A stretch of DNA of 64,000 nt. Source: Agriterribacter humi (GTDB lineage: Bacteria > Bacteroidota > Bacteroidia > Chitinophagales > Chitinophagaceae). Position numbers and translations under genes: made by a program. This document shows positions 14,510-22,791 of the stretch, one piece after another; position 1 is the stretch's first letter; each line of letters opens with the position of its first letter. The notes beneath the pieces were generated by a model. That model was not told the origin of the DNA. It worked only from the letters and a program-made list of their open reading frames with translations, and ran no database searches. The DNA lies in contig NZ_VOHQ01000010.1 of NCBI RefSeq assembly GCF_009192765.1, forward strand, positions 1-64,000. The letters are read 5' to 3'.

Positions 14510-15117
14510 GCCAGGTTAAATTGAGTAATCACTTGATTGTATTCGTACAGTAGCTTTTCTATTTCCGCCCACCCTGCCGACTGCGCATGTTTGTTGATGG
14601 TAGACTGTTTTATTTTTAGCTTCTTTGATACCTCTGTCTGGGTTTGTTCTTTCAAAAGCTCCAGTACAACTTCGGCCTGCCTTGAGGTTAGCCGTTTCAG
14701 AATATAATCCGTGAAATATGCAATAACCCTGAAGGCAACGTTTGCGTTTTCATTTGCCGACTGAATCCATAAACGCTGATCATCCTTTAACTGTTCAAAC
14801 ATTCTTCCCGATAAAACGAATGCTTCACTGTTGGCCGTTCGCAAAGTTTGCACAGTTCTAATCGCTTTGCCTATTCCTATGCTGATGCGCACATCGTATA
14901 TACCGGAAAAACCTTTGGCAGCAGTTCTTAACCGGATGGCTAATTTTAATACTGCTGAAATATCTTTAGTGTACACCTGGAAACTGTCACCGCGGTAGAA
15001 TTCGAATTTGTAATTTTTTAAAACAGCGCTGAGCCGTGCTACCAGCTTCTTCCCCATAGCGGTTCCGGCAACTGTGGAGTTAACAATATCAGCGGTTATA
15101 ACGGCGGCAAGAGGCAT
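14506..15117 (-). CDS. SatD-like protein: nucleotide-cyclase-like fold plus C-terminal helix-turn-helix
   Basis: A 203 aa protein. Residues 1-130 resemble SatD and the class III cyclase fold (VITADIVNST at 6-15, YRGDSFQVY at 41-49, VRISIGIGKA at 76-85). The C-terminus (about 142-180) is a sigma-70-region-4/LuxR-like HTH: LTSRQAEVVLELL, TEVSKKLKIKQSTINKHAQS. The start at 15117 is chosen over the in-frame ATG at 15138 because the -7 element (15136-15143) overlaps 15138, so an mRNA from this promoter could not contain that codon, and because SatD proteins begin near MxxVITxDIV. Its role is not known; the HTH and the palindromes upstream suggest an autoregulator controlling the coupled DUF3307 gene. 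Cyclase activity is not implied. Confidence 0.8.
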   Translation of the reverse strand: MPLAAVITADIVNSTVAGTAMGKKLVARLSAVLKNYKFEFYRGDSFQVYTKDISAVLKLAIRLRTAAKGFSGIYDVRISIGIGKAIRTVQTLRTANSEAFVLSGRMFEQLKDDQRLWIQSANENANVAFRVIAYFTDYILKRLTSRQAEVVLELLKEQTQTEVSKKLKIKQSTINKHAQSAGWAEIEKLLYEYNQVITQFNLA

Positions 15118-15135: not shown

Positions 15136-15167
15136 CAAATATAGCCTAAAAAGGCGATATTATTAAA
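15136..15167 (-). promoter_or_regulatory. Promoter of the SatD-like/DUF3307 operon
   Basis: On the minus strand the -7 element is TATATTTG (15136-15143), an exact TAnnTTTG match; TTTA lies 20 bp upstream at the -33 position (15164-15167). Transcription would begin near 15129, leaving a leader of about 12 nt before the ATG at 15117. The proximal palindrome (15140-15159) overlaps the -7 element and fills the spacer. Confidence 0.75.
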
Positions 15168-15217
15168 TTATAGCCTAAAAAGGCTATATTTTTAAATTAT
15201 AGCTTAAAAAGGCTATA
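15140..15217. promoter_or_regulatory. Three tandem 20-bp palindromes with exact 29-bp period (predicted operator)
   Basis: The copies are TATAGCCTAAAAAGGCGATA (15140-15159), TATAGCCTAAAAAGGCTATA (15169-15188) and TATAGCTTAAAAAGGCTATA (15198-15217). Each is a near-perfect inverted repeat TATAGCCT / AGGCTATA around an A-rich centre; the spacers are both 9 bp (TTATTAAAT, TTTTTAAAT). The first covers the promoter spacer and the edge of the -7 element. The most likely ligand is the HTH of the SatD-like protein (inference). Confidence 0.8.
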
Positions 15218-15301: not shown

Positions 15302-18253
15302 CTAATCTTCCAGCCCCCATACTTTTCCTTTCATAACGGCGGGCACTCCTTCGCTCAGCCATTGTGCAGGACGATGTCCTTTCAACTGCCAGTCAAAAAA
15401 CTGCTGCTCCCTTATTTGCAAATCTTTTCTGTTCTTTCTTTCCATTACATTATGCGCCTCACCATTGTAATTGAGCAGCCATACAGGTTTATTCAAACGC
15501 CGCAAGCCTGTAAATAATTCAATCCCCTGGTACCAGGGTACGGCTCCGTCATTATCATTGTGCATGATCACCAATGGAGTAGTTACCTTTGGCAGGTAAA
15601 ACAAGGGCGAATTTTCTATATACAATTGCGGCTTTTGCCATAAGGTAGCGCCTATGCGACTTTGGGTTTTTTCATATTGAAACTGCCTGTTCATGCCGGT
15701 TGACCAGCGGATACCACCATAAGCGCTCGTCATATTACCAACAGGAGCTCCGGCCCATGCAGCTTTGAATAATTTGGTTTGGGTAATAACATAAGCCGTT
15801 TGATAACCGCCCCAGCTTTGTCCCTGTATTCCTATCCGGGTACTGTCTGCCCATCCTTTTTTAATCAATGCCCTTGCACCGCTTACAATATAATTATAGG
15901 CGCTTTTGCCCGGGTGACCGGTTGTATACGAAATATCCGGAACAAAAACAATATAGCCCCTGCTCACAAAAAAAGAAATATTCAAACGGCTGGGGGTAGG
16001 CGCCGGGGGAATATACTGGTACAATCCATCGCTAAGCTTTTCATAGAAATAACAGATGGCAGGATATTTTTTCTTCGGATCAAAGTCCTCAGGTTTATAC
16101 ACAATGCCTGTTGCCCGTTTGCCGTTATAGGCTTTCCATTTAAATAACTCCGCAGTGCCCCAGTTATAATTTGCCTGCTGCGGATTAATAGCACTTAACC
16201 TGGCTTCCTGCTGCCATCCTGCATTTACATACAGATCAGGCGGGTGCACATAGCTCTCCTTTGTATAAATATAAATACTGCTATCCTTTGCTTTAGCTAT
16301 CCTGTTGCTATTAATGGCAAAAGCTCCGTTTACAACAGTAACAGGTTTTGCAGTGCTCAATACCTTATATGTAGCTATACCAGCATGTTTATTATCATCA
16401 GCAAACATATGCAGGAGTATCTCCTGCGAAGGCGTAATGAATTTTTTTTCGGGATCGGTACGAACATACCTGTACGTTACTTTATTTTTACGCCCTTCAC
16501 CTGCCGTGATATTAAGAGGAGCAACAACCCTGTCGGGATCCAATTGCCAGATGTCAAATTTGTCGTATACCAGGACAGACAGATCACTTTGCGTCCAGGC
16601 CATTACGCCATAAGAAGATGGATCAGTTGGCATATCAAAATCCTCATCGTATAATTTTGTACGGATCTCTGAAGAAATATTCTTTGTTTTACCGTTTCGC
16701 CAGGTAAAATACTGGTGTGCTTTTGCATCATACCACAGCACATACTTACCAGCAGGTGATACAGTAACATACCCCGAAAGATTTTTTTTAATTAACTTCC
16801 GGGTTCCGTCTTCCGGCTGTATGATATAAATATCTTTCAGGGTTCTTCCTTCCCATTGCAGCGCAGCACGTTTACCCGTATCCGTAATACCCACAAAGAA
16901 ATCGCTGTCACCCTCATTCCCGGATATAATATCTTCAACTTCCCGGTCTGCAAGCTGAACGAATTTTTTATTATCCAGGTCAATCATTGCAGTGTAGCTT
17001 TTTTTAACATCCTTATCCAGGTTCTTCAATTGTATGGATTGCAGGTAGTCGTCTTTATAATTCCAGATATCAACTTTCACCAGGTCAATATCTATAAGGG
17101 ATGTATCTTTTGGCGGTTGAACAGGCGCAGATCCTGCAAAGAGCCGTTTCCCCGACTTACTGAAATGCACACCCGCATGCTCACTTACACTCCAGCCTAC
17201 AGGCATGCCGGCAATATTTTTATCGGCGATCACTACAGCACTGTCATAACCATTTTGCCAATACCACAGCTTGTACATTTTTTGAAGTGCCTTAGCGCTG
17301 CTATCTCTTTCAGCAACAAAAGCCAACTGGTACCCCTGTTCATCAATAGCGTAATTGCGAAAATCATTCCCTCCTTTCATAATCGTATCAAACCGGCCTT
17401 CAACTGTTCTGAAAATACATACTGCAGCTTTGCGCAAACTGTCTTTTTTTGAAGTTGTCGTTTCTGTTATTAAAATATTTCCGGTTTTGCTCCATACATA
17501 TTCACTTACAAAATCCAGGGTTTGCTCTATACTATCCCGCAGATTAAAAATAACCAATGCTGTGCCTTCCTCCTTTTTTTCTCCCGAACCAGGTTCGTCC
17601 TCAGCCTCGTTATAAGCAAATGCAGGATTGTTTAATAAAATCATCTCATCATCATTTTTAATAACAGGCGGATTAGTGATCCGCTGTCTTTTCTTTGCCT
17701 GTTCGGCGGTAGGTTCTGCAACAGATCTTTTTAATGAATCTATCTGCTTCGCTAATGAATCGGGTGCAGCTTTCCTTTTGGAAGTATCCGCTATTGGTTT
17801 TTCCATTTGCCAGGCTATCCACTGTGCATTTTTCTCAGGTACTTTATACGATTTAACCCGGGCAGCTCTCACAACTATGCCCTTACCCAATTCCACGATA
17901 ACCAATGAATCTTTAGGAAACTGATCGGGTGTTTTCTTTTGTATACGGGCCTGCCTTATGGCGGCATAAGGCGGTTTTATTTTAAAAACAGCATACCTGC
18001 TGTCTTCCGTAATGGTAATATTATAACCCCTGGCAATCGTTTCCCTGTATTTTGAATCAGCAGATTGTATAACAAGCGTTCCATCTCCTTCCTGAACTTC
18101 AATTGTATACACAATCCATCTGCCGTCATTGCTTATCTCTCTTTCACCAATGGATTGCCAGCTATCATATACCGTATGATCAAGAGGTTTTTTATTTTGT
18201 GCATTTACCTTTACTGCCAGCAGTATGATTATAATAAAAAATACCTTTCTCAT
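15302..18253 (-). CDS. S9 family prolyl-oligopeptidase-like serine peptidase, exported
   Basis: A 983 aa protein with a signal peptide at 1-18 (MRKVFFIIIILLAVKVNA). A long N-terminal beta-propeller-like region (about 20-690) precedes an alpha/beta-hydrolase peptidase domain. The catalytic serine lies in GQSWGGYQ, the acid residue in HNDNDGAVPW, and the His in NGEAHNV, in the S9 order Ser-Asp-His. It belongs to the large exported S9 peptidases of Bacteroidota, likely cleaving peptides in the periplasm. It is a single gene on the minus strand. Confidence 0.93.
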   Translation of the reverse strand: MRKVFFIIIILLAVKVNAQNKKPLDHTVYDSWQSIGEREISNDGRWIVYTIEVQEGDGTLVIQSADSKYRETIARGYNITITEDSRYAVFKIKPPYAAIRQARIQKKTPDQFPKDSLVIVELGKGIVVRAARVKSYKVPEKNAQWIAWQMEKPIADTSKRKAAPDSLAKQIDSLKRSVAEPTAEQAKKRQRITNPPVIKNDDEMILLNNPAFAYNEAEDEPGSGEKKEEGTALVIFNLRDSIEQTLDFVSEYVWSKTGNILITETTTSKKDSLRKAAVCIFRTVEGRFDTIMKGGNDFRNYAIDEQGYQLAFVAERDSSAKALQKMYKLWYWQNGYDSAVVIADKNIAGMPVGWSVSEHAGVHFSKSGKRLFAGSAPVQPPKDTSLIDIDLVKVDIWNYKDDYLQSIQLKNLDKDVKKSYTAMIDLDNKKFVQLADREVEDIISGNEGDSDFFVGITDTGKRAALQWEGRTLKDIYIIQPEDGTRKLIKKNLSGYVTVSPAGKYVLWYDAKAHQYFTWRNGKTKNISSEIRTKLYDEDFDMPTDPSSYGVMAWTQSDLSVLVYDKFDIWQLDPDRVVAPLNITAGEGRKNKVTYRYVRTDPEKKFITPSQEILLHMFADDNKHAGIATYKVLSTAKPVTVVNGAFAINSNRIAKAKDSSIYIYTKESYVHPPDLYVNAGWQQEARLSAINPQQANYNWGTAELFKWKAYNGKRATGIVYKPEDFDPKKKYPAICYFYEKLSDGLYQYIPPAPTPSRLNISFFVSRGYIVFVPDISYTTGHPGKSAYNYIVSGARALIKKGWADSTRIGIQGQSWGGYQTAYVITQTKLFKAAWAGAPVGNMTSAYGGIRWSTGMNRQFQYEKTQSRIGATLWQKPQLYIENSPLFYLPKVTTPLVIMHNDNDGAVPWYQGIELFTGLRRLNKPVWLLNYNGEAHNVMERKNRKDLQIREQQFFDWQLKGHRPAQWLSEGVPAVMKGKVWGLED

Positions 18254-21447: not shown

Positions 21448-22791
21448 TTAGTTATAGTGCAGTTTAAGGTCTACACGACGATTTTTAGCGCGGCCTGCAG
21501 CCGTTTTATTATCTGCAACCGGCTGATCCTGGCCAAAACCTGCGGATATAAGACGCGCTGGATCAACACCTCCCTTTGCAGTTAAATAATCCACTACAGA
21601 CTGGGCTCTCTGCTCGCTCAAAATCTGGTTCTTATCCGGTTTACCGGTATTATCTGTATGTCCCTCCACATCTAATTTAAGATTGGGATCTTCATTAAGA
21701 ATTTTTGCAACTTCATTCAATGATTTGAATGATTTTGACAACAGTTTAGAGCTGCCTGTAGCAAAAAATACATTTTTCGCTGCCACATCAATACGTTTTT
21801 TCACTTCTTCTTTTATTTCGGGACAACCCTGGTTGCTGGCAGGTCCTGCAAGAGCGGGACATTTATCTTCTTCATCATTTACGCCATCACTATCCGTATC
21901 CGGAATGGGGCAGCCCTGGTATTTAGCAACCCCTGCTTCATTGGGGCATTTATCTTCTTCATCATGTATTCCATCGCTATCGGTATCGGGTATGGGACAA
22001 CCATCGTATTTTTCAAGACCCTTTACTTCAGGACATTTATCATTCTTATCTTCAATGCCATCACCGTCTTTATCAGGGCAGCCTTTGAACTGAGCCAGTC
22101 CTGCAACATCGGGACAAGCATCAAGTGAATCAACAATACCGTCATTGTCTGTATCGGCTGGTGGCGGAGGAGGAGGAATTACTTTAGGCTCTTTTTTCTC
22201 AAACAAAGAACCTGCAACGCCTAAACTGTAAAACAAATGATTGGCAGTAGTACCGGTAGTTACGGCAACACGGTATTGCGCATTAAAATTAATAAAAGCC
22301 TGGTCTAATAAATTAACCTGTACACCCAGCCCCAGTGGCACATAAGCACCCCAGTAGCCATTCCATTGCGAGCCACCGATGCCGGCCGTTAAATACGGCG
22401 TAACCCAATATCTGTCGCTCAGCAATTTGGCATTGATATTGGCATCCAATTCGGCAAGCAACTTATCATTGCCGCCTTGTGGCTTATCGGGCACCGGATA
22501 GTCTGTGAAAGTACCGCCTAAGCGGGCCATAAAATCAAAATGATCGGTAAGTCCCTGAAAATAAGACAGCGCTAAACCGGGACTCATGCGCCCTGTTTTA
22601 TACCATTGTTTGTCTTTTAAAACCTGGTTAAGTGAAGTGTTCTTTAAATCTTGTGCAGTTTGAAAATCATGAAAGGTAAATGAAAAGCCAAATGCCGGTT
22701 TCTTTTTGTAAGGATTTTTTATGGCATTTTCCTGGGCGAAAGCAGTGCTGAGTATGCATACTGCCAATAAGCTTAATAACGGTTTTCTCAT
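21448..22791 (-). CDS. OmpA-family outer-membrane protein with thrombospondin type 3 repeats
   Basis: A 447 aa protein: signal peptide (about 1-19), an N-terminal eight-stranded-barrel-like domain (to about 205), a proline hinge, four TSP3 calcium-binding repeats (pattern DxDxDGxxDxxDxCP at about 213-330), and a C-terminal OmpA peptidoglycan-binding domain with NVFFATGSSKL, VEGHTDNTG and the NRRVDLKL end. It anchors the outer membrane to peptidoglycan. It has one of the clearest promoters in the window and a strong terminator, in keeping with an abundant structural protein. Confidence 0.95.
   Translation of the reverse strand: MRKPLLSLLAVCILSTAFAQENAIKNPYKKKPAFGFSFTFHDFQTAQDLKNTSLNQVLKDKQWYKTGRMSPGLALSYFQGLTDHFDFMARLGGTFTDYPVPDKPQGGNDKLLAELDANINAKLLSDRYWVTPYLTAGIGGSQWNGYWGAYVPLGLGVQVNLLDQAFINFNAQYRVAVTTGTTANHLFYSLGVAGSLFEKKEPKVIPPPPPPADTDNDGIVDSLDACPDVAGLAQFKGCPDKDGDGIEDKNDKCPEVKGLEKYDGCPIPDTDSDGIHDEEDKCPNEAGVAKYQGCPIPDTDSDGVNDEEDKCPALAGPASNQGCPEIKEEVKKRIDVAAKNVFFATGSSKLLSKSFKSLNEVAKILNEDPNLKLDVEGHTDNTGKPDKNQILSEQRAQSVVDYLTAKGGVDPARLISAGFGQDQPVADNKTAAGRAKNRRVDLKLHYN

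Follow-up and report, generated by a model that had tools for sequence, protein, structure and literature searches.

A palindromic array of fixed pitch upstream of satD-DUF3307 operons as the probable operator of the SatD-like protein

The window analyzed here, a 64,000-nt stretch of the Agriterribacter humi genome, carries on its minus strand an operon in which a gene for a SatD-like regulator precedes one for a DUF3307 protein (Table 1). Between the stop codon of a prolyl-oligopeptidase-type gene (15302, minus) and the ATG of the SatD-like gene (15117, minus) lies a row of three palindromes. An earlier reading made from the letters alone (the sequence-only reading) had described them as 20-bp units at an exact 29-bp pitch, with two 9-bp spacers composed of A and T and a single substitution in each outer copy. 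The analysis bears out all of these particulars: a repeat search returned spacings of 29 and 29, both spacers read as described in the window sequence, and sites 1 and 3 each have one arm mismatch, site 2 being perfect. Tandem Repeats Finder reports the array as a repeat of period 29 with 93% matches. With up to three mismatches allowed, the pattern occurs three times in the window, each time at the array (0.29 expected), and none of 100 shuffled windows had three matches. These sites are also the only ones in the whole genome with zero or one mismatch, no place outside the array coming within one mismatch of the pattern; looser genome matches are about as frequent as in the control, with 37 forward matches in all versus 30 for the reversed pattern. 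Another tandem repeat in the window (21857-22064; period 87 bp, or 29 codons; 2.4 copies) is unrelated to the array as far as seen.

Table 1. Coordinates of the operon, its upstream array and the SatD-type arrays located away from satD
Feature	Position	Strand	Remarks
Palindromic site 1, promoter-proximal	15140-15159	.	TATAGCCTAAAAAGGCGATA; one arm mismatch
Palindromic site 2	15169-15188	.	arms TATAGCCT/AGGCTATA; no mismatch
Palindromic site 3	15198-15217	.	TATAGCTTAAAAAGGCTATA; one arm mismatch
TATATTTG, candidate -7 element	15136-15143	minus	form TAnnTTTG; box TATA is the end of site 1
SatD-like regulator, 203 aa	14506-15117	minus	cyclase-fold domain and C-terminal helix-turn-helix
Class III cyclase-like domain, residues 3-120	14758-15111	minus	Asp10 and Gly43-Asp44 invariant in 64 aligned sequences
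Codons 171-176 (QSTINK), start of recognition helix	14590-14607	minus	171, 172, 173 and 176 covary with half-site positions 2, 4, 5 and 6
DUF3307 protein (PF11750), 234 aa	13805-14509	minus	overlaps satD stop by four bases
Arrays away from satD	L313 4119-4196; L317 4495-4543; L318 4371-4419		SatD-type
Arrays away from satD	L315 4022-4103; L302 3563-3611; L303 3854-3902		SatD-type

The family assignments of the two proteins differ in firmness. The DUF3307 protein scores 89.5 bits against PF11750, well above the cut-off of 23. The regulator resembles the SatD family, PF16264, in length (203 aa against the 211 of the profile), and falls below the family cut-off with 18 bits against 29. Among 64 aligned homologues, 39 match PF16264 at E ≤0.1, the best at 1.1e-10, and haloarchaeal neighbors of DUF3307 are annotated as SatD family; a search of the window's own genome with the PF16264 model gave no match, and control genomes were equally silent. 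Helix-turn-helix matches in Pfam and NCBIfam fall below cut-off. The family takes its name from the sat operon of Streptococcus mutans (Kremer et al. 2001, cited in PMC10326533), and one Fusobacterium protein is called SatD family in PMC10326533.

The predicted structure of the SatD-like protein (pLDDT 96.8) has a helix at residues 171-180 in the recognition region, and Foldseek ranks class III nucleotide cyclases as its closest matches, with a best E of 3.4e-05 and a probability of 1.00. Asp10 and Gly43-Asp44 line up with the D and GD found in Ma1120 and 3mr7 (weak E, 0.03-0.1). The protein shares with class III cyclases such as Ma1120 and 3et6 both the fold and the metal-binding aspartates (D10, D44), but differs from them in being fused to a helix-turn-helix and in lacking conservation of the Asn/Arg residues that true class III cyclases use in the transition state. 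After residue 83, the 64 aligned rows contain no invariant or near-invariant Asn or Arg, equivalence being judged by sequence only. Because these later residues are unconserved, a nucleotide sensor is favored over a cyclase as the likely role of the domain. The DUF3307 model (pLDDT 94.4) is all-helical and carries an invariant His/Asp set, the residues invariant in 48 sequences including H13, D17, H42, H69, D73, D89 and H93, and the protein may therefore resemble a membrane metalloenzyme; comparison with solved folds gave no Foldseek match at E <0.001, nor any match by sequence. The PADLOC defense models matched none of the three DUF3307 proteins tested, and gave weak CARF3 matches over the helix-turn-helix part of two of three SatD proteins, short of a defense-system call.

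The promoter is likely to lie at the near end of the array. TATATTTG fits TAnnTTTG, which we take to be the -7 element consensus, and ends 18 bases from the ATG of the SatD-like gene. According to the sequence-only reading, the proximal copy overlaps this box and fills the spacer between it and a -33 element; the overlap stands, TATATTTG sharing 4 bp with that copy, but no clear -33 TTG is seen at the usual distance, so the spacer claim is half borne out. TAnnTTTG recurs at the identical offset (16) from the last site in 39 of the 157 array loci defined below, and the exact motif is absent near the last site in 72 of them. Among the 27 loci without an array, 8 have a same-strand open reading frame (ORF) that ends within 40 nt of satD; among the 174 with an array, a single locus does, which is what an array acting on satD's own promoter would lead one to expect. 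By eye, seven of the eight frames at array-free loci end like ABC-F proteins, and the remaining one (L032) is probably a chance ORF. At eight Bacteroidota loci (L116, L124, L131, L140, L141, L144, L147 and L148), satD has no array and starts 5-59 bp after a gene that by eye is ABC-F-like.

The sequence-only reading had tied its proposal to the recurrence of the array upstream of orthologues, and recurrence is what we find. The 215 upstream regions collected included 202 distinct ones, one of which was dropped for N, and each of the remaining 201 was scored at periods 21-40 for two or three 20-bp palindromes sharing one half-site. With two copies, 87 of the 201 scored best at period 28 and 98 at period 29 (9.6 and 9.3 in shuffles); with three, 88 did so at 28 and 95 at 29. 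Taken together, 28 or 29 was best in 185 of 201 distinct upstreams against about 19 in shuffles. Upstreams of other ORFs at the same loci gave 28 in 12 and 29 in 35 of 439, the latter somewhat higher than the shuffle rate. This free period search is the test of pitch, since spacing counts in the TAnnTTTG set are confined to 27-30 by construction. Under strict criteria, an array of two to six copies is present at 174 of the 201 loci and lacking at 27; in a second, more distant set, 25 of 51 loci have one and 26 do not.

What is conserved is the pitch and the length of the palindrome, not the letters. The 157 in-frame arrays contain 35 different six-letter half-sites, a safer figure than the 81 eight-letter consensuses of all 174 arrays, which include frame variants; eight-letter examples are TATAGCCT, TATAAGCC, TATAGTAC, TATCGGCT and GTTCGTAT. 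A tree built on the cyclase-like domain shows no fewer than 56 changes of the six-letter half-site. Looking in related genomes for TATAGCCT-N4-AGGCTATA, as had been proposed, would miss nearly all arrays, that half-site occurring in 3 of 174. Since the letters of the window, when sought elsewhere in its own genome, find this operon only, the conservation was hidden, and it was the scan for any palindrome at any pitch that revealed it. The set of 157 results from a frame filter that required T as the third letter and A or T as the second, and that removed 17 of the 174 arrays before covariation was analyzed. For most of the 17, the scan seems to have picked up the outward frame; three of them (L098, L162 and L195), however, are in frame and combine G at position 2 with Arg at residue 171, so that the filter conceals one further residue-base pairing.

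Because outward-facing arms at a pitch of 28 can also form 20-bp palindromes, we considered a continuous lattice of half-sites. The half-site match is 0.93 within arrays (a fitted value), 0.35 and 0.34 in the two flanks and 0.29 in background, and flanks with five of the six letters make up 8% and 6% versus 1%. With the array match high and the flanks near background, whole inward-facing palindromes are favored as the unit and the lattice was rejected.

A link between the array and the protein beside it comes from comparing the half-site bases of the 157 in-frame arrays with every column of the SatD alignment by mutual information. The strongest partner of position 5 is residue 173, at 0.85 bits against 0.35 for the runner-up column; for position 6 it is residue 176 (0.77 against 0.29), and for position 4 residue 172 (0.47 against 0.35). 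Residue 171 is associated with positions 1 (0.45) and 2 (0.48), and position 7 has no clear partner. Columns of DUF3307, which has the same history as satD, reach at most 0.35 bits (153 loci). At residue 171, Gln goes with A in 138 of 140 loci and Lys with T in 11 of 11; at 172, Pro goes with A in 36 of 36, and Ser is mixed (42 C and 38 A of 87). At 173, Ala goes with A (56/62), Thr with G (27/29) and Ser with G (38/55); at 176, Lys (24/27) and Arg (9/10) go with C, which is G on the opposite strand, and Glu (24/27) and Gln (49/69) with G. The looser pairings are those of Ser at 172 and 173 and of Gln at 176.

Shared ancestry was addressed in two ways. Among 75 disjoint nearest (sister) pairs and 204 columns, the matching residue is top-ranked for position 2 (residue 171) and position 5 (residue 173), and is runner-up for position 4 (residue 172, after residue 199) and position 6 (residue 176, after residue 125). 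On supported branches of the tree, independent changes are few and none of the single tests is significant; mean numbers of pairs in the expected and the other direction were 4.0/0, 2.2/0, 4.6/0, 3.0/0 and 3.4/0, and 2.8/0.8 for G at position 6 with Glu or Gln.

The resulting recognition rule was fixed before new DNA was taken up. Sixty-three further loci, less 12 duplicates, gave 51 new upstreams, some of them related to training loci; 25 had an array, 20 of these in frame. The rule gave the right base in 52 of 57 cases, or 49 of 53 without the doubtful locus L280 (TTTAAAAA), which was counted in frame and is probably an A/T-rich chance match. By residue, it was right in 20 of 20 (171), 5 of 5 (172), 16 of 18 (173) and 11 of 14 (176). 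Since position 2 is almost invariably A (19 of 20, with L280 the sole Lys-171 case), the residue-171 part is hardly a test, and the weight falls on residues 173 and 176, whose bases vary: 12 G, 7 A and 1 T at position 5, and 9 G, 4 C, 4 T and 3 A at position 6. With L260 and L261 as exceptions, the 26 array-free held-out loci mostly have other helices (RQAVGDSL, SEVAVYKNI and KSLIWKR types), which places the array in one large branch of SatD, more distant subfamilies being without it.

The spread of SatD is patchy. Protein searches found a homologue in 78 of 294 genomes of the family and 43 of its 101 genera, including 3 of the 5 listed genomes of the window's own genus, with one satD match listed in the window's own genome; profile searches found it in 107 of 395 genomes across the phylum and 51 of 395 across the class. 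An alignment scan for DUF3307 named 80 loci, the closest 80 of 575 and so silent on distant DUF3307 genes; most are from Bacteroidota, and they include two planctomycetes, Proteus and a Methanosarcinaceae bin. A SatD-profile match turned up in 223 of 224 loci, among them every DUF3307 locus examined; the remaining locus, L004, had entered the set through a chance match to the pattern. Two-copy arrays precede satD in the planctomycetes (L129, L180), the Methanosarcinaceae bin (L151) and Proteus (L162), with the caveat that bins can be contaminated.

Arrays extend to Proteobacteria, planctomycetes and archaea, and some lie on plasmids. Ten of 17 matches in a plasmid collection were examined for them: a conjugative Vibrio lentus plasmid has three copies at 28 bp (z 11), two haloarchaeal plasmids have two copies each at 29 bp (z 6-7) and Pseudoalteromonas has a weaker array (z 3.8), with borderline cases in Segatella (z ~4) and Salinivibrio (z 2-4) and nothing convincing on pEC34A or the Sphingomonas, Enterobacter and Fusobacterium plasmid records. 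The Vibrio helix fits the rule at residues 173 and 176; in the haloarchaeal helices, residues 171 and 173 conform to it, and residue 176 violates it. The window's DUF3307 protein had no match in a phage collection. On a Sphingomonas insulae plasmid (L295, 1701-5696), satD-DUF3307, here with no array, adjoins an annotated Pycsar effector, an E2 domain-associated cysteine-rich protein and a nucleotide cyclase, a defense-type neighborhood. The E. coli plasmid pEC34A (L292, 3770 bp) is small and mobilizable, with mobA, a satD homologue and DUF3307 (three of five features seen), and five Klebsiella records of 3.8-4.4 kb also match DUF3307.

Because the arrays are conserved, the recognition helix covaries with them and the held-out rule fits, it is very probable that the array is bound by SatD and that SatD controls its own satD-DUF3307 operon, the core of the sequence-only reading, which the wide occurrence of arrays and the helix covariation support. 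From the array, its conserved pitch, the covariation and the fold, we infer the following picture, to which we assign a probability of about 0.83 as the account of the array. A SatD dimer would bind each 20-bp palindrome through the C-terminal helix-turn-helix, with residues 171, 172, 173 and 176 reading half-site positions 2, 4, 5 and 6, and two to six dimers would sit side by side, perhaps cooperatively, at a fixed pitch of 28 or 29 bp. With 10.5 bp per helical turn of DNA, this pitch is about 2.7 turns, so neighboring dimers would not share one face and would instead wind around the helix. In the window, the last dimer would cover the -7 box, and expression of the satD-DUF3307 operon would be held down by autorepression. 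The role of the cyclase-like domain is probably to sense a nucleotide with metal, or to turn it over, and a nucleotide-related signal would free SatD from the DNA, so that DUF3307 would be induced.

The same binding could instead serve activation, or dual regulation, of the operon. Two of the three window sites lie upstream of the promoter core, and at some loci the array stops far short of the start codon, as an activator would have it; the last site falls on the -7 box in the window, however, and TAnnTTTG keeps its offset in 39 of 157 loci. Protein bound there should stand in the way of polymerase, which makes this alternative distinctly unlikely. Assigning the array to an unrelated host DNA-binding protein, with SatD a mere passenger, is a good deal less probable again. 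Nothing was found in its favor beyond the fact that a helix-turn-helix gene beside a palindrome is common, and it sits poorly with covariation that involves the SatD recognition helix and neither the rest of SatD nor DUF3307, with an array that accompanies satD in other phyla and with arrays before satD at loci showing no DUF3307 (L027, L221 and L255 (A-rich, out of frame); not L274).

We give the least credence of all to the palindromes acting as RNA hairpins, serving the upstream peptidase gene as its terminator, or being a neutral tandem repeat. Site 2 did score as terminator-like on the plus strand, and the peptidase gene ends nearby, at 15302 on the minus strand; that score, however, is on the strand without the neighboring genes, and the window has no Rfam match. 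The pitch holds through the many half-site changes counted on the tree, and neither an RNA element nor a neutral repeat would be expected to covary with a protein helix.

The sequence-only reading knew of no described regulatory system of this form for such gene pairs. This holds for the open-access literature searched and extends no further: there, no operator or mechanism is described for the SatD family and no regulation for satD-DUF3307, and DUF3307 is named in a single paper. Covariation between recognition helix and operator is reported for the GntR, IclR and MerR families (PMC4494728, PMC8222616, PMC5045206); the residue-to-base correlation is of the same kind, but in the SatD homologues it is carried by one operon with 35 half-sites in 157 arrays, two to six sites per array and a single pitch within each. 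ParA, according to PMC8465637, is a nucleotide-binding autoregulator of plasmid partition operons for which promoter cover by three cooperating dimers is proposed; it differs in that it belongs to another protein class, that its sites overlap and that each inverted repeat encloses a 28-bp spacer, and no kinship is implied.

An uncharacterized gene pair of Bacteria and Archaea thus gains a predicted regulator, a predicted operator and a recognition code that appears partly readable, making targets predictable from sequence. Array letters change in step with the SatD protein and the 28-29 base spacing stays constant, so this fixed architecture with its at least 56 half-site changes offers a natural series for the joint change of a protein and its DNA site. 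The cyclase-fold domain, for its part, points to a nucleotide signal that can be tested. One speculative extension, which we regard as doubtful yet worth stating, is that satD-DUF3307 might be a mobile, self-insulating, nucleotide-sensing membrane module for stress or anti-phage functions. SatD dimers, set in a helical row along a promoter lattice of fixed pitch, would come apart upon nucleotide occupancy, helix and operator would drift as a matched pair such that cassettes in one cell avoid cross-talk, and in some genomes the code would also command a second, unlinked gene.

SatD-type arrays stand at a second place, remote from satD, in some genomes. One genus has a two-site pattern of TATA type in 9 of 10 genomes, and an extra array remote from satD is present in five genomes (G253, G288, G1010, G1012 and G1013) and in one of another genus (G230), each with a single satD match; neither the window's genome nor G028 shows such a second array. 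In G253 and G230, no suitably starting gene was seen beside the extra array. In G288, G1012 and G1013, the second array lies 144-214 bp upstream of genes for homologous proteins of about 245 aa (58-69% identical, with no Pfam match over cut-off), and the one in G1010 precedes a NIF-type phosphatase gene by 72 bp. On the other side, divergent genes 224-323 bp away encode a protoglobin (G288), an acetyltransferase (G1012) and a homologue of that acetyltransferase (G1013), which makes the target gene uncertain. In five cases, the second array has the same letters as the satD array of its genome; G1013 (L318) differs, with TATAAGG versus TATAGTA, and its mismatched array is perhaps the relic of an exchanged cassette.
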